Assembly (NCBI GenBank): GCA_947626095.1
Contig: CANQQV010000005.1
Span: forward strand, 1 to 64,000
Length of the DNA: 64,000 nucleotides
Source: an uncultured Bacilli bacterium
GTDB taxonomy: Bacteria; Bacillota_I; Bacilli_A; RF39; UBA660
Direction: 5' to 3'
Position 1 is the stretch's first letter. Every line of letters starts with the position of its first letter. This document shows positions 27,326-45,878 of this stretch, one piece after another. The notes under the pieces were generated by a model, which had not been told where the DNA came from, did no database searches, and saw only the letters and a program-made list of their open reading frames with translations. The position numbers were made by a program, and so were the translations under genes.

Positions 27326-27455
27326 AAAAAAGATGTTCAAGATAACCTTGAACATCACATAGTTTAAAGTTATCTTATCGATCTAGCTTTACCACCTAAT
27401 CTAATAGGTTGGTGTGATTTCATAGGGCTAGTCCCTCCATCACTCTTTATAAGAT
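27326..27455 (-). promoter_or_regulatory. SAM-I (S-box) riboswitch with terminator
   Basis: On the minus strand the aptamer (27455-27372) has TCTTATAAAGAG, GATGGAGGGACTAGCCCTATGAAA, CACCAACC, a variable hairpin, GGTGGTAAAGC, and closing GATAAGA: the S-box core in order. An expression-platform terminator follows (10-bp stem GATGTTCAAG/CTTGAACATC, 27332-27356, then T6). SAM binding should terminate metK transcription. Confidence 0.95.
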
Positions 27456-39979: not shown

Positions 39980-40882
39980 TTAAATACTATCTATTTCAAT
40001 ATTTTGATAATAGTATTTTAATATTTCTTCATAGGTATATCCTTCTTTAGCCATAGCATTAGCACCATATTGACTCATTCCTACACCATGGCCATACCCC
40101 TTAGTAGTTATTTCAATGTCATTATTTATTTTTATTGTAAAATCAGTTGATCTTAGAGATAGTAGTTGACGGATTTCGATACCAGTAAAAATTTTATTAT
40201 TTATGGTTATCTCTGATACACGATTAGATTCGTCTTTAGATATATTTGAAATAGTTATTTGGTTACATGAGATAGATAATTTTTGGCAAAATTCTTCTTT
40301 AGGAATAGTAATAGTATTTTCGTTATCTTCGTCCCATGGAGATGGAATGATGTTTAAATAAGCCGTTTCATCATTAAAGACATTAATAGAACTTTCAGTA
40401 TAACCGTTAGACATAGAATAATAGTAAGCTTTAATAGGTTCATTTTGATAGTACATTATTAAGTTTTTCGTACCATTAACGGCATTACTTATTTTTTGAT
40501 AATATTCTGAGTATTTATCTTGCCATTTATTTTGCATCTCTTCTTTACTTAGATAAACTTGATTATCAGTAGTAGTTTTAAGAGATGGATGGTTTTTTAA
40601 GTAAGATATGGCATATGTACGGGAAGCAATGGCTTGGGCTTTTAGAGCTTCTTCTTCAAAGAGTGCGGGCATTTCGCCAGCGACAACACCAATTATATAC
40701 TCTTCTAATTCGAGATTAGTTTCTTCATTATTCTTATTAATTGTTACTTCTTGCTTGTTATCAACACTCTGTTGATTATTTTCTTCCATATTAAAATTAG
40801 TTTCTTTTAGGAAGAAACTAATTATCGTTATTGGTATTAATAAAACAATGATATAAAGTAAGTTTTTAGTCAAAAAGATCAT
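39980..40882 (-). CDS. spoIID: Stage II sporulation protein D (SpoIID)
   Basis: 300 residues: membrane helix at 7-25, then the SpoIID/LytB domain with LEEYIIGVVAGEMPALFEEEALKAQAIASRTYA (catalytic Glu in GEMP) and the C-terminal GYGHGVGMSQYGANAMA block. SpoIID is the lytic transglycosylase that works with SpoIIP and SpoIIM to thin the septum and drive engulfment. It overlaps the DUF1146 gene by 4 bases. A sporulation role is inferred; related proteins exist in non-sporulators. Confidence 0.92.
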   Translation of the reverse strand: MIFLTKNLLYIIVLLIPITIISFFLKETNFNMEENNQQSVDNKQEVTINKNNEETNLELEEYIIGVVAGEMPALFEEEALKAQAIASRTYAISYLKNHPSLKTTTDNQVYLSKEEMQNKWQDKYSEYYQKISNAVNGTKNLIMYYQNEPIKAYYYSMSNGYTESSINVFNDETAYLNIIPSPWDEDNENTITIPKEEFCQKLSISCNQITISNISKDESNRVSEITINNKIFTGIEIRQLLSLRSTDFTIKINNDIEITTKGYGHGVGMSQYGANAMAKEGYTYEEILKYYYQNIEIDSI

Positions 40883-41082: not shown

Positions 41083-41521
41083 TATATGTACCTTCTTCGT
41101 AGTTTATGATTTTATTTACTCTTCTTTGATGTCTTTCTTCAGTTGATGGTTCAGTAGAAATAAATTCTTTAATCATGGCAATTAATTCATTTATATCTTG
41201 TTTATAACTTAAAGCGATAATATTGGCATTATTATGTTCACGGGCTAGATGAGCTTGAGATATGTTAGAACAGTGAGCACAGCGAATACCTTTAACTTTA
41301 TTAGCAGCGATACTCATACCAATACCGGTACCACACATTAGGACACCTAGGTCAGCTTCTTTACTAATAATACTTTTACTTACACGAAAAGCAAAATCGG
41401 GATAGTCATCAGTTGGATTGTTATCAGGACTAAGATCAATTATTTCATACTCTGATAATGCTTTAATTATTTCTTTTTTTTCATTAACACCATTGTGATC
41501 AGTTGCGATTGCTATCTTCAT
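41072..41521 (-). CDS. rpiB: Ribose-5-phosphate isomerase B / RpiB-LacAB family
   Basis: 149 residues. ATDHNG near the N-terminus, MCGTGIGMSIAANKVKGIRCAHCSN (active-site Cys in the anion hole) and LAREHNNANIIALS are typical RpiB. It interconverts ribulose-5-phosphate and ribose-5-phosphate; allose-6-phosphate or other sugar substrates cannot be excluded. Start chosen at the second of two consecutive ATGs (seven bases after AGGAG). The 5' end overlaps the ATP-grasp gene. Confidence 0.93.
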   Translation of the reverse strand: MKIAIATDHNGVNEKKEIIKALSEYEIIDLSPDNNPTDDYPDFAFRVSKSIISKEADLGVLMCGTGIGMSIAANKVKGIRCAHCSNISQAHLAREHNNANIIALSYKQDINELIAMIKEFISTEPSTEERHQRRVNKIINYEEGTYNEL

Positions 41522-42530
41522 CATTATTCTCCTTTTTATTCATAGCTTCTTTAAATCTTGGTAATAAACCTTGGCCATTAGAACGATGTGGTGGTAGTTG
41601 ATATAAGTCATGGCCTGGGAATTCGTTGCCTTCTATTAAGAATGGATCTTTAGGTCCTAGGCAGACATCCCAACCAACATAACCTACTTCAGGAACTTCA
41701 TAGGATGCTTTAATAACGAAACGTTTTATACGAGGCCATTTAGGGATTTTAAACCATATTATTGATTCACCAGTTATAGGATGTTTATCGTATATATTAC
41801 CTTTTTTATCAACTGCTAGGTAATCTATAATACCTGTTTCAATGTTGATTGGGGCGACTAATCCATCATGATTAAAATTATCAACAATATTATTATTGTT
41901 ACCGATTCTTAAGTAAGCAGCGACGATTATATGGTTTAAAGTAACAATTCTAATAGTATTGACTGATGATGGATGAAGAGACGCAATTTCTGGACATTGA
42001 ACAGCTATTTCTTCAACTAAATATCTTTTAGTTTCTAATAAGTTATTATATATCTTTTTAACATTATGGGTATTAACTTTAAATATTTCAATGCCTTTAC
42101 CACAGCTTTCAGATAAAGGTTTGACTAAGATACTTGGATGTTTTTTACAGAAGGCCGTAAATTCTTGGTAACTTTCTTTAGTATCTTTTACTTCCATCCA
42201 ATCTCTTAAAAGGTATTTATGAAATTTCTGATTAAAAGTTATTTTATTACTAAAATATTTCATATATTCAGGATTATTATATTTTTTAACGATATCATTA
42301 TTAATTCCGCGAGTAATGATAGTTTCTCTTTGAGCTTTATTTAAATTATACATTTCATATAATTTATAATCCATATAGCCAGCTTGATATTTAAAACCAC
42401 AATTAACAATATCACAGAAAATAAATAATCGATTCTTATGATTCTTTTCATGAATGTAGTTAATGGTATCAAAAAGGCCACGATAGTTCATGCTTTTTAT
42501 TCTTGTAAATAAATAACCTATTTTACCCAT
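41499..42530 (-). CDS. Sugar-transfer-associated ATP-grasp protein
   Basis: 343 residues, start at ATG 42530 behind GGTGG. ATP-grasp features include ILVKPLSESCGKGIEIF (phosphate loop), the YLVEEIAVQCPEIASLHPSSVNTIRIVTL block and a C-terminal VGWDVCLGPKDPFLIEGNEFPGHDLYQ with metal-binding residues. This is the ATPgrasp_ST type often found in capsule or glycopeptide loci; it should join a carboxylate to an amine or thiol on a sugar-linked substrate. The actual reaction is unknown, and no glycosyltransferase is adjacent. Confidence 0.82.
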   Translation of the reverse strand: MGKIGYLFTRIKSMNYRGLFDTINYIHEKNHKNRLFIFCDIVNCGFKYQAGYMDYKLYEMYNLNKAQRETIITRGINNDIVKKYNNPEYMKYFSNKITFNQKFHKYLLRDWMEVKDTKESYQEFTAFCKKHPSILVKPLSESCGKGIEIFKVNTHNVKKIYNNLLETKRYLVEEIAVQCPEIASLHPSSVNTIRIVTLNHIIVAAYLRIGNNNNIVDNFNHDGLVAPINIETGIIDYLAVDKKGNIYDKHPITGESIIWFKIPKWPRIKRFVIKASYEVPEVGYVGWDVCLGPKDPFLIEGNEFPGHDLYQLPPHRSNGQGLLPRFKEAMNKKENNDEDSNRN

Positions 42531-42584
42531 AATTACCACCCTGTTTATAGTATACCACAATTTTTAAGGAATGAAAAAAAGCTA

Positions 42585-42800
42585 CTATTTAGCAGCTTCT
42601 TGATCATAACCATATCTACGGTTGAACTTTTCAACTGAACCAGTCTTTTTAGCCTTACCTTGTTTTCCTGTATAGAATGGATGACATTCACTACATACTT
42701 CAATATGGATTTCATCTTTAGTTGATTTAGTCATGAATGTAGCTCCACAAGCACAAGTTACTTTGCAATCTTTAAGTTCTGGATGGATATCTTTTTTCAT
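42585..42800 (-). CDS. rpmE: 50S ribosomal protein bL31
   Basis: 71 residues: [33 protein letters not shown] and [10 protein letters not shown]. Cysteines at CxC and CxxC form the zinc site of the C+ type. GGAGAA precedes the ATG. Monocistronic, with its own promoter and a short hairpin leader. Confidence 0.97.
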
Positions 42801-42885
42801 TTTTATTCTCCTTCCGCCATGTCTAATATTTAAGACATAGTAATTTCTTCGTCTAATGTATTATATCATAAGAATTGAACTTATC
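42801..42885 (-). promoter_or_regulatory. rpmE promoter and hairpin leader
   Basis: On the minus strand TTGATA, a 16-bp spacer and TGA-TATAAT, then a leader with a hairpin (ATGTCT/AGACAT, loop TAAATATT) followed by GGCGGAAGGAG. A small hairpin directly before the binding site fits an L31 autoregulatory leader, but this was not tested. Confidence 0.45.
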
Positions 42886-42914
42886 AAGTCTTAATCTTAT
42901 TTTTTCTTACTATT

Positions 42915-43436
42915 TTACTTCTTTTTGAAGATAGAAATAACTTTTCCTGTCATAAAAACGATAGAATCACTATTTTTAGTAGCAACATTTTTAAAAACAG
43001 CTTTGAAACCAACAGTTAAAGCAGAAATTACAGCGGTAACTAAGATAGTTGTGATAGTAGTACTAAAGTGGAAATAATTAGCAATAGATAGAGTTAGGAC
43101 AGCACCTAAACTACCACTTACAATACCACATATATCTCCAATAACATCATTACATACTGAAGATACTTTAGTTGAATTTTTTAACAAGGATATAGCTTCT
43201 TTAGCACCTTTTAATTTTTTAGTAGCTTTAGCATGAAGATTAGCTTCTTTACTAGTTAAAACAGCAACACCTATCATATCAAAGATAATACCAATTGAAA
43301 TAACAACTAAGATAATTATTGTTAAGACTATTTCATTAAAAGTATCAGATATTACAGTAGAAATACCACTAAATAAGATAGATAAAATAAAAGATAATAA
43401 AAAAACTTTATATATCCAGTTAACATTACTCTTCAT
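42915..43436 (-). CDS. Four-helix membrane protein, candidate OapA (OLE RNA partner)
   Basis: 173 residues with four hydrophobic helices (about 8-27, 34-60, 98-122, 126-148) and a basic Lys/Ala-rich loop between helices 2 and 3 (EANLHAKATKKLKGAKEAI). It looks distantly like the DUF21 membrane module of CNNM/CorC magnesium proteins. OapA, the OLE RNA-associated protein, has this size and topology and is normally encoded directly downstream of OLE RNA; here the gene starts about 55 nt after a long structured noncoding stretch. AAGGAG precedes the ATG. The name is inference from topology and context. Confidence 0.65.
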   Translation of the reverse strand: MKSNVNWIYKVFLLSFILSILFSGISTVISDTFNEIVLTIIILVVISIGIIFDMIGVAVLTSKEANLHAKATKKLKGAKEAISLLKNSTKVSSVCNDVIGDICGIVSGSLGAVLTLSIANYFHFSTTITTILVTAVISALTVGFKAVFKNVATKNSDSIVFMTGKVISIFKKK

Positions 43437-43489
43437 ATTAACTCTCCTTATAAAGTAATTTAATAAAAACTTATGGTATATTATAAATT

Positions 43490-43930
43490 AATTTTACGGC
43501 TTTGGTCGAGTTGAATTTCTCTAGCTCCTACCATCGATTACTCTCTGGCGATTTCTCTTTAAAGGATCCAATCGAATGTTACCGGTTCGATTACTCGATT
43601 ACCACTTAGTCCGTACCTCAAACTTTATAATACATACACCCTAGAGAATTTCTCTATCATATAGGGATTATTCTTATTCGCTTTTGCAATTACAATTTCA
43701 ATTACTATCCCTTGTAATCACTCACGACATGCACTAGTTATATCTTCACGGCAGACGGGATAAAAGGAACTCTTTATATGCCATTATAATTTGTCCTTAA
43801 ATCTTAAATCATATACCCACCCGATTCTGGGCGAAACAAGCAAGTATACAAAGTGTCATATCAGCACAATTGGTAGATTTTTAGCCCCACCTTCAAATAA
43901 TTTTTATGACTAGGATAATGCACCATAACG
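43490..43930 (-). ncRNA. Long structured noncoding RNA, candidate OLE RNA
   Basis: About 440 nt without a reading frame, clearly richer in G and C than the surrounding genes and full of local complementarity (AATCGAA/TTCGATT and CCCTA.TAGAGAA/TTCTCTA.GGG hairpins, plus GGTGGGGC and GAGGTACGG blocks). It starts just after a consensus promoter and ends shortly before the four-helix membrane gene. It is not a tRNA, rRNA, tmRNA or RNase P RNA by their conserved cores. Gene order (large RNA, then OapA-like protein) suggests OLE RNA, which binds OapA at the membrane and affects stress and magnesium responses. Both ends are approximate. Confidence 0.65.
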
Positions 43931-43936
43931 ATTAAA

Positions 43937-43965
43937 AGTTTATCAAATCTAGGAAAAAATGTCAA
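43937..43965 (-). promoter_or_regulatory. Promoter of the noncoding RNA
   Basis: Minus-strand -35 TTGACA (43960-43965), 17-bp spacer, TGA-extended -10 TAAACT (43937-43942), right at the murA stop; predicted start near 43930. Confidence 0.75.
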
Positions 43966-43971
43966 ATCTTC

Positions 43972-45225
43972 CTATACTTCTTTAATCTTAATTTTAGCAC
44001 CAGCTTTAGTTAGTTTTTCAACGATATTTTCGTATCCTCTTAGGATATGTTCTATCTCATTAACAGTAGTTTTTCCTTTAGCTATTAAACCAGCTATAAC
44101 CATAGCTGCACCAGCTCTTAAATCAGTAGCGGTTACTTCTTCGCCTTTTAATGGAGTTTTACCAACAATAATCGCCGTACGATCATTAACGCGAATATTA
44201 GCACCCATTTTTTGTAAGTATTTAATATGGCCCATACGATTTTCATAGATGGTTTCTTCAAAGATAGACATACCATCAGCTTGCGTTAGTAAGACACTCA
44301 TCGGTTGACCTAAATCAGTGGCAAAACCGGGGAAGACTAATGTTTTAACGTTGATTGATTTATATTTTTTAGGCCTGTTGATAACTATCGAGTTATTATC
44401 AATTTTCATATCAACACCCATTTCTTTTAATTTAGATAATAAAGCATCAATATGTTCTTCGATAATACCACTTATTTTTAGGTTTTTACCAAGTAAAGCT
44501 CCCATTATAATGTAGGTTCCAGCTTCAATACGATCAGGAATAACATCGATAACGGCTTTACCTAGCTTTTGAACACCTTCAATTTTTATTTCACTAGTTC
44601 CTGCACCAGTAATTCTAGCTCCCATATTATTTAGTAAGGTCGCAATATTAACGATTTCTGGTTCTTTAGCAGCATTAGATATATAAGTAGTTCCTTCAGC
44701 TTTAACGGCAGCTAGCATAATATTAATAGTCGCACCAACTGAAGCAAAGTCTAAATAAATACGAGCTCCTTTTAATTTATCTGTTTTAAAAATATATTTA
44801 TTGCCTTCAATAGTTACTTCAGCACCTAGTTTTTGAAAGCCATTAATATGGAAATCAATTGGTCTTGAACCAATATTACATCCACCTGGGAAGTATATTT
44901 CAGCATAATGGAATTTACCAAGTAAGGCCCCCATAAAGTAGTAAGATGCTCTTAGTTTTTTACTTAGTTCTTCAGGAACTAATTTATTTTCAATATGACT
45001 GGTATCGATTTTCATTATTTCATCTTGATATTCAACTTTACCGTTTAGTAAATCAATAATATCTAGTAAAGCTCTAGTATCAGATATATCTGGGACGTTA
45101 TATAATGTAACTTCTTCATCTGATAAAATAGCAGCTGGTATTAAAGCTACAACACTATTTTTAGCACCACTGATTTTAATTTCACCAGTTAGTTCATGTC
45201 CCCCATCAATTATTAATTGTTTCAT
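43972..45225 (-). CDS. murA: UDP-N-acetylglucosamine 1-carboxyvinyltransferase
   Basis: 417 residues: SGAKNS (Lys22) near the N-terminus and GGCNIGSRPID with the active-site Cys116, the fosfomycin target. It adds enolpyruvate to UDP-GlcNAc, the first committed step of peptidoglycan synthesis, so the cell makes a wall. It lies in the rpmE/spoIID/prfA neighbourhood as in Bacillus. GAGAGTG precedes the ATG; the upstream gap has no clear -35. Confidence 0.97.
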   Translation of the reverse strand: MKQLIIDGGHELTGEIKISGAKNSVVALIPAAILSDEEVTLYNVPDISDTRALLDIIDLLNGKVEYQDEIMKIDTSHIENKLVPEELSKKLRASYYFMGALLGKFHYAEIYFPGGCNIGSRPIDFHINGFQKLGAEVTIEGNKYIFKTDKLKGARIYLDFASVGATINIMLAAVKAEGTTYISNAAKEPEIVNIATLLNNMGARITGAGTSEIKIEGVQKLGKAVIDVIPDRIEAGTYIIMGALLGKNLKISGIIEEHIDALLSKLKEMGVDMKIDNNSIVINRPKKYKSINVKTLVFPGFATDLGQPMSVLLTQADGMSIFEETIYENRMGHIKYLQKMGANIRVNDRTAIIVGKTPLKGEEVTATDLRAGAAMVIAGLIAKGKTTVNEIEHILRGYENIVEKLTKAGAKIKIKEV

Positions 45226-45334: not shown

Positions 45335-45844
45335 TTATGAACCTAGTTTTTCTAAGATTTCTTGAATAAAGAATTTATATTCAACTTCATCATAATCTTC
45401 TTCATTAGATTCTAATAAACATAGTGGTGGATACATAACACACCACCAGTTATTACCTTGAGCTTCACCTAAAGAGATAACTAATGATTCATATTCACCT
45501 TCATTATAAGTTACACCTTTATAATTTTTGGATGGGAAATAATTAGGTCCATAATTTACTTTGTATGGTATATTATATGAATTTAAAGTATTTTTGATAA
45601 TATCTTCGTTAGCAGAAATAATTTGACGAGATTCTTCTAAGGAACTTGCATTTTCAAGTAAAGGAAAGAATTGTTGTTCTAAGTCTTTCTTTATAGCTTT
45701 TTTAGTATTTTGATCAAGATCAGAGTTACTATTAGCGATTATTCTAAATCTAATTGAATCATTAGGTATTATAGGATTATTATTGTTATATAGGAAGAAT
45801 GATAAGACAATTATAATTAAAACAATGTAGATTATTTTTTTCAT
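45335..45844 (-). CDS. spoIIR: Stage II sporulation protein R (SpoIIR)
   Basis: 169 residues starting MKKIIYIV at ATG 45844. Signal/anchor helix 2-19, then the SpoIIR core: IRFRIIANSNSDLDQNTKKAIKKDL, YGPNYFPSKNYKGVTYNEGEYESLVISLGEAQGNNWWCVMYPPLC. SpoIIR is made in the forespore and triggers SpoIIGA to process pro-sigma-E. The binding site AGGTG lies inside the 3' arm of a hairpin (45848-45878). It follows prmC as in Bacillus. Confidence 0.93.
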   Translation of the reverse strand: MKKIIYIVLIIIVLSFFLYNNNNPIIPNDSIRFRIIANSNSDLDQNTKKAIKKDLEQQFFPLLENASSLEESRQIISANEDIIKNTLNSYNIPYKVNYGPNYFPSKNYKGVTYNEGEYESLVISLGEAQGNNWWCVMYPPLCLLESNEEDYDEVEYKFFIQEILEKLGS

Positions 45845-45847
45845 TAA

Positions 45848-45878
45848 AATATCACCTAACATAATGTTGGGTGATATT
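45848..45878 (-). terminator. Hairpin after prmC that covers the spoIIR ribosome site
   Basis: 14-bp stem (AATATCACCTAACA/TGTTGGGTGATATT, one G-U pair), loop TAA. The 3' arm on the minus strand includes the AGGTG of spoIIR and is followed by TTTAATG, so termination and initiation signals coincide. Confidence 0.75.

Follow-up and report, generated by a model that had tools for sequence, protein, structure and literature searches.

A shortened OLE RNA beside the gene for its membrane-protein partner OapA in an RF39-type gut bacterium

Introduction

OLE is a giant, membrane-bound RNA and ranks among the largest structured bacterial RNAs that have yet to be given a biochemical function. Here we analyze an OLE RNA gene and the adjoining gene for its membrane-protein partner OapA in a stretch of 64,000 nucleotides (nt), hereafter the window, from an uncultured Bacilli bacterium (GenBank assembly GCA_947626095.1, contig CANQQV010000005.1, positions 1 to 64,000), and compare both with their relatives.

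In H. halodurans, OLE has been described as an abundant RNA which is bound by OapA and transcribed in one polycistronic RNA. Cryo-electron microscopy (cryo-EM) of longer OLE RNAs has revealed a dimer held together by an A-A contact between P4 loops (bridge B1), by loops 5, 6, and 7 (B2), and by the L9.3 kissing loop (B3), whose tetranucleotide alternates among the palindromes GGCC, GAUC, and AGCU, and a 2025 review has proposed that P3 crosses the membrane and that OapA sites lie in or near P2 and P4a. OapA has a published motif, DxxxD, which is absent from CNNM domains. Two reduced forms of the RNA have been distinguished: variant 1 (TANB77 clade), in which P7-P9 are shorter but not missing, and variant 2, which is widespread, common in RF39, and entirely devoid of P7 and P8, and whose hosts largely lack OapB and OapC (Fernando and Breaker 2024, PMC11332333). 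Our comparisons draw on the accessible text of this article (mSphere 2024) and of RNA 2025, Nature 2025, JBC 2022, RNA Biol 2025, PeerJ 2021, and PMC12191101.

Results

The Rfam covariance model of OLE (RF01071, gathering score 50 bits) matched the minus strand of the window from model position 1 to 616 with 239.1 bits (E 2.8e-66), which is far beyond chance and makes the identity of the locus as an OLE RNA practically certain; it is the only copy found in the source genome (1.6 Mb, 34 contigs, completeness 91%, contamination 7.9%). The original prediction, made from the letters alone, had read this locus as a candidate OLE RNA with an OapA-like membrane protein, and both the model match and the OapA comparison given below bear it out. 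It had also allowed for a different large RNA with its own membrane partner. Although the RNA is below the typical OLE length and lies in an unusual gene context, the full-length match excludes this alternative and the known partner adjoins, so that a class merely resembling OLE retains next to no probability. The predicted GC enrichment and non-coding character were also found, with 34.0% GC in the RNA vs. 28.5% in the whole window and no open reading frame (ORF) above 40 amino acids (aa) overlapping it on either strand (the longest has 40 aa), but the proposed length of about 440 nt has to be corrected to 486 nt.

A promoter-like site (TTGACA, a 17-nt spacer, and TAAACT preceded by TG; 10/12 consensus) is present where it had been predicted. 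The site alone proves little because 13 such sites were found in 42750-44050 vs. a mean of 7.2 in shuffles. Since its second hexamer shares 6 nt with the 5' end of the Rfam match, the RNA probably starts near position 43930. The match ends 20 nt before the start codon of oapA, and a sequence scan of 42750-44050 detected no terminator-like site between the two.

The oapA reading frame is intact. An AlphaFold2 model of its product (mean confidence score pLDDT 84) places long helices at residues 5-32, 35-61, 88-122, and 126-154, and four membrane helices together with a basic loop are predicted for the protein (both the membrane character of the helices and the basic nature of stretch 63-90 were judged by eye). 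Both aspartates of the DxxxD motif (D97 and D101) are invariant in 13/13 OapA sequences compared, a set without L007, whose OapA is cut by the locus end. OapA is weakly homologous to the CNNM domain, and its residues 34-170 share the membrane-domain fold of the CNNM/MpfA-type protein MtCorB (7M1T); a Foldseek search with OapA gave nothing at E 0.001 or better (best 4.9e-3). It is not an MpfA/CorB transporter, which combines CNNM, a CBS pair, and CorC_HlyC: a Pfam scan found no CBS or CorC match in the 173 residues, which leave no room for these domains, and OapA differs further in its extra first helix, its DxxxD motif, and its RNA partner. Among the best OapA matches in named genomes are an uncultured Bacilli metagenome-assembled genome (MAG) (86%) and Candidatus Coprovivens excrementavium (78%), whose genus has been assigned to order RF39, family CAG-1000 (PMC8035907).

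The secondary structure was derived with RNAalifold from an alignment of 28 short OLE RNAs including that of the window, and its helices, with P-numbers assigned by analogy with published OLE structures, reproduce P1, P2, P3/P3.1, P4, P4a, P5, P6, a short P9, and the 3' domain (Table 1). The consensus has 129 pairs. Standard pairs fill 97.3% of the alignment cells vs. 85.1% in shuffles, and 75/129 pairs show changes on both sides vs. 47.4 in shuffles (0/500 shuffles as high), including 10/11 pairs of P3/P3.1. Sliding the pair partners lowers pairing to 36-44%, a control which is partly circular in that this alignment had itself yielded the structure; the double-sided changes are therefore the stronger point. 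The conserved OLE secondary structure is thus backed by covariation in the short types. The AAGGA/UCCUU strands of P6/P6.1 look, by eye, like the published bS21 site, which resembles a Shine-Dalgarno/anti-Shine-Dalgarno pair. Neither a P9.3 loop nor kink-turn (k-turn) motifs were found in the window RNA, and the published bridge B3 (L9.3) is missing because the P9 apex has no palindromic loop. Missing P7, P8, P9.3, and k-turn motifs in a genome of 1.6 Mb might suggest a relic decaying through genome reduction; however, pairing is maintained across 28 relatives by changes on both sides, oapA has kept an intact frame, and the short form is common to a supported clade, which makes decay very improbable.

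Table 1. Positions of the OLE locus, its neighbors, and the small OLE loci of relatives (window coordinates unless a locus is named)
Feature	Position	Strand	Basis or remark
murA, upstream neighbor	43972..45225	-	ORF; name from the original prediction; recurs upstream in relatives
Promoter-like site	43937..43965	-	
OLE RNA, short (variant 2) type, 486 nt in model	43457..43942	-	RF01071
P1	43926-43922 with 43477-43473 (span 43473..43926)	-	AUGGU/ACCAU; consensus fold
P2, closes 5' domain 1	43917-43910 with 43644-43637	-	100% of cells paired, 28 sequences
P3/P3.1	43908-43904 with 43662-43658; 43901-43896 with 43672-43667	-	11 consensus pairs
P4 hairpin	43872..43891	-	A-rich loop GCUAAAAA (43885-43878); published dimer bridge B1
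P4a	43868-43864 with 43734-43730	-	Double-sided changes in 4/5 pairs
P5/P5.1 hairpin	43809..43851	-	Loop GCCCA (43832-43828); part of published bridge B2
P6 + P6.1	43759..43803	-	Loop AUGGCA (43784-43779); other part of published B2
Linker in place of P7 and P8	43735..43758	-	24 nt; both helices absent
P9, shortened	43678..43727	-	Apex 43709-43700; no palindromic loop
Domain 2 (3' domain), between P2 and 3' arm of P1	43473..43636	-	Highly conserved CGGACUAAGUGGUAAUCGAGU block
oapA, 173 aa	42915..43436	-	Long predicted helices, basic loop, DVIGD (DxxxD)
L31-Firmicutes ribosomal leader, upstream of rpmE	42808..42840	-	RF03156, 38.9 bits
rpmE (bL31), downstream neighbor of oapA	42585..42800	-	ORF; name from the original prediction and the L31 leader
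Small OLE loci, three related genomes	L036 2128-2508 (same locus as L132); L130; L131		

Compared with full-length OLE (RF01071; H. halodurans, C. acetobutylicum), the window RNA shares P1-P6, the base of P9, domain 2, the conserved blocks, and a downstream oapA, but it has 486 nt instead of about 600, lacks P7, P8, a long P9, and the P9.3 loop, shows no recognizable k-turn motifs, and lies between murA and rpmE. It was thus correctly predicted to be shorter than the type of about 600 nt. With variant 1 it has in common a reduced OLE, occurrence in gut bacteria, and a host lineage largely without OapC and probably also OapB. With variant 2 it agrees in the absence of P7/P8, in an RF39-type gut bacterial host, in the presence of OapA, and in that OapC was not found, and nothing was detected that sets it apart. 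The suggestion of a divergent OLE class was therefore right as to a divergent form but not as to a new class: the window RNA is an ordinary, newly located member of the described variant 2, whose shortened form was already known.

To place the short form among its relatives, we compared 114 OLE sequences spanning the whole model. Of the 80 named loci L015-L094, which are the best-scoring of 532 relatives and lean towards the window, 67 with a whole-model OLE entered this set; L101-L127 are the best-scoring OLE RNAs of a search of the same family and lean towards long types, so the fractions below are not frequencies in nature. Left out were partial OLEs (L026, L032, L043, L047, L050, L065, L078, L093, L129, and L133), loci without a match (L038, L051, L059, and L080), and L036, which is the same locus as L132; L072 and L106 are one locus, and L014 was not parsed in the palindrome count. 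A palindromic P9 loop with at least two G/C occurs in 76/80 long OLEs (shuffled P9, 11.5%; GGCC 56, AGCU 11, GUAC 6, CUAG 2, UCGA 1), L004 and L009 being among the four exceptions, vs. 4/30 short OLEs, all GAUC (shuffled, 5.6%). In the accessible text of PMC11332333, we found no mention that most short types have lost the P9.3 kissing loop. The J4a/5 k-turn motif was recognized in 54/80 long vs. 0/30 short OLEs, and the J6/7 block UGGAGACC in 60/80 vs. 0/30. By eye, most long OLEs of the family (L002-L013) keep the J4a/5 motif, and OapC is absent from the 11 genomes of this group that were checked, implying that the motif is not there for OapC alone. The P4 loop motif, the L5 loop, and the L6 loop are each kept in 30/30 short OLEs; L5 and L6 hardly vary among relatives, and a simple L5 motif search was negative in 14/80 long OLEs.

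A still smaller OLE of 378-381 nt, which spans the whole model with 134-139 bits, was detected in G430, G553, and G494, and we found no published description of it in the open literature. It lacks P5-P8 and has, by eye, a 6-7-pair hairpin with a tetraloop where P4a led into P5/P6, and the three hardly differ in the P4 loop CUAAAAAUC or in the 3' domain. Downstream of each lies an oapA frame of 172-174 aa with DxxxD. A GAUC sits in P9, which the minimum-energy fold exposes as a loop in 0/3 and which an alternative hairpin would expose. L014 lacks P7/P8 and the k-turn motifs and has a UAGCUA loop in P9. In an OapA tree of 112 rows (L095 and L098, which hold no OapA, were left out), the long types, with L014 counted among them, lie on one side of a branch (support 97/94), L014 is sister to the short types (99/88), although its long branch makes its place unsure and the bootstrap had not settled, and the three small OLEs form one clade within the short types (100/100). 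The simplest order would begin with the loss of P7/P8 and the k-turn motifs, continue with that of P9.3 on more than one occasion, and end with a single loss of P5/P6; this is one history rather than a set of independent tests. Loss of P9.3 would be repeated because some short types keep GAUC and the long L004 and L009 have no palindrome, and it is not a single step after k-turn loss because L014 is already without k-turn motifs, 4/30 short OLEs keep GAUC, and 4/80 long OLEs have no palindrome.

Two further features of the relatives were noticed. In L065 (2176-2332; L100), only OLE model positions 436-595 (domain 2) were found upstream of oapA, and the sequence ahead of this match resembles an ATP-binding cassette transporter frame; ole may be broken here, the locus may be chimeric, or the RNA may consist of domain 2 alone. 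A lysine/arginine-rich (K/R-rich) N-terminal arm is common in long-type OapA and missing in short-type OapA, with exceptions (medians of 26 residues with 9 K/R vs. 4.5 residues with 1 K/R; 17/112 rows were not parsed and others were misparsed). Co-loss of this arm with OLE shortening is not claimed because several long types have short arms and the parsing is incomplete.

Among 243 genomes of the same family, OLE was detected in 159 and OapA in 160; 156 have both, seven have one alone (OLE in G416, G429, and G531; OapA in G474, G476, G535, and G598), and 80 have neither (lists compared by eye). Since most of these genomes are MAGs, a single absence may reflect a gap, and the stricter OLE filters used there lose weak matches. 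At L038 and L059 (with L095 and L098), no OLE lies upstream of OapA; orphan OapA genes were considered and rejected, as OLE is present elsewhere in each of the two MAGs, on a different contig. In G422, a full OLE (L112) is accompanied by another that is partial and lies at the end of a contig (L133).

With regard to the other partners, the OapC family (L7Ae, PF01248) was found in 0/30 family genomes, including G000, in which the original prediction had proposed to look for it, and the profile was positive in 7/14 control genomes, in the genome of L086, and in B. subtilis; OapC is thus largely missing from the clade, as described for variant 2. The CorC_HlyC domain of MpfA (PF03471) was detected in 0/243 family genomes (control positive in 11/14 genomes), and the published anticorrelation with MpfA was discarded as a functional test within the family because the count is zero whatever the OLE status. 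The ribosomal protein bS21 is present in 25/25 genomes, 24 of them from the family. In a KOW search of G000 and two other genomes with a profile of unproven power for OapB, two hits exceeded the cut-off in G000 and were assigned to L24 and NusG solely from their size. DUF2187 as the OapB family (28 genomes) proved a wrong lead: the lowest-E hit, L148, has no fitting gene and is antisense to an unrelated ORF.

The prediction had also pointed to murA and rpmE as unusual neighbors for OLE, and this arrangement recurs: oapA is followed by rpmE in 11/28 other short-type loci vs. 0/52 long-type loci, and murA lies upstream in all 11 (flanks of 1.5-2.5 kb, some cut by contig ends). The L31 leader was detected in 5/80 relative loci scanned. 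This context raises the question whether the RNA might be only a long cis-regulatory leader of an oapA-rpmE operon, acting for example in ion sensing or oapA control. The 20-nt gap without a terminator-like site, the nearly constant company of OLE and oapA, and the second leader, that of L31, just downstream would fit such a role. However, a gene of 330 aa sits between OLE and oapA in G059, and the two are on different contigs in the genomes of L038 and L059 and in G404, a separation that suits a trans-acting RNA, though binning errors could mimic it; the OLE of H. halodurans has been published as an abundant OapA-bound RNA, though on one polycistronic RNA. We therefore regard a pure leader as improbable.

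Other features of the window include an ATP-grasp gene of the sugar-transfer type (41499-42560, minus strand) downstream of rpmE, relatives of which lie downstream in several short-type loci, and SpoIID (39980-40882) and SpoIIR (45335-45862) family genes near ole, both on the minus strand; sporulation genes have been reported to correlate with OLE (Fernando and Breaker 2024, PMC11332333). A SAM riboswitch (RF00162) is located at 27372-27455 (minus strand, 64.6 bits).

Discussion

We consider it likely that a reduced OLE ribonucleoprotein is produced from this locus. A single transcript would probably run from just upstream of the OLE RNA into oapA, and the RNA would fold into two domains connected by P3/P3.1. 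OapA, which is related to the CNNM Mg2+ transporter domain, may hold the RNA at the membrane, as suggested by its location in other species. By analogy with the longer OLE RNAs, two window RNAs may pair through loop contacts at P4 (B1) and at P5/P6 (B2), without a P9.3 kissing loop. In the clade of the window, such a particle would work without OapC and MpfA, and probably without OapB. As in H. halodurans, it might aid in coping with stress, probably through the handling of divalent ions; this mechanism appears plausible but falls somewhat short of probable.

The identity of the RNA, its fold, the identity of OapA, and their co-occurrence are observations on this locus and its relatives, as is the result that no P9.3 loop, k-turn motifs, MpfA, or OapC turned up. 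We infer the limits of the transcript, the membrane location, the dimer, and the ion/stress role. Several points weigh against the reduced ribonucleoprotein as proposed. For the dimer and the membrane-spanning helix, we rely on published structures, which are those of longer OLE RNAs. Neither OLE nor OapA was found in G551 (same genus, 90% complete), which may mean that the genus can do without the particle. Besides, the MpfA result does not discriminate within the family because OLE-less genomes lack MpfA too. Independently of the particle, no OLE, OapA, or MpfA was found in 80/243 family genomes (such as G551), and these species may lack both proposed devices.

The clade is more useful than a single case, as it reveals which structural parts evolution has given up in lineages that retain both the RNA and OapA. 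The OLE of about 380 nt with domain 2, which is not resolved in present cryo-EM models, would offer a small target for structure work, and the small OLE separates needed dimer contacts from dispensable ones. P1-P4a, the P4 A-loop, the base of P9, domain 2, and OapA are kept in all size classes. We tentatively propose, though with more doubt than conviction, that the relatives represent a natural deletion series which defines the minimal OLE particle. If this is true, the working core would consist of domain 2, the P4 contact, and the OapA-bound stem for which a passage through the membrane has been proposed, and the OapC site, the bS21 site, and both kissing-loop bridges would be accessory.
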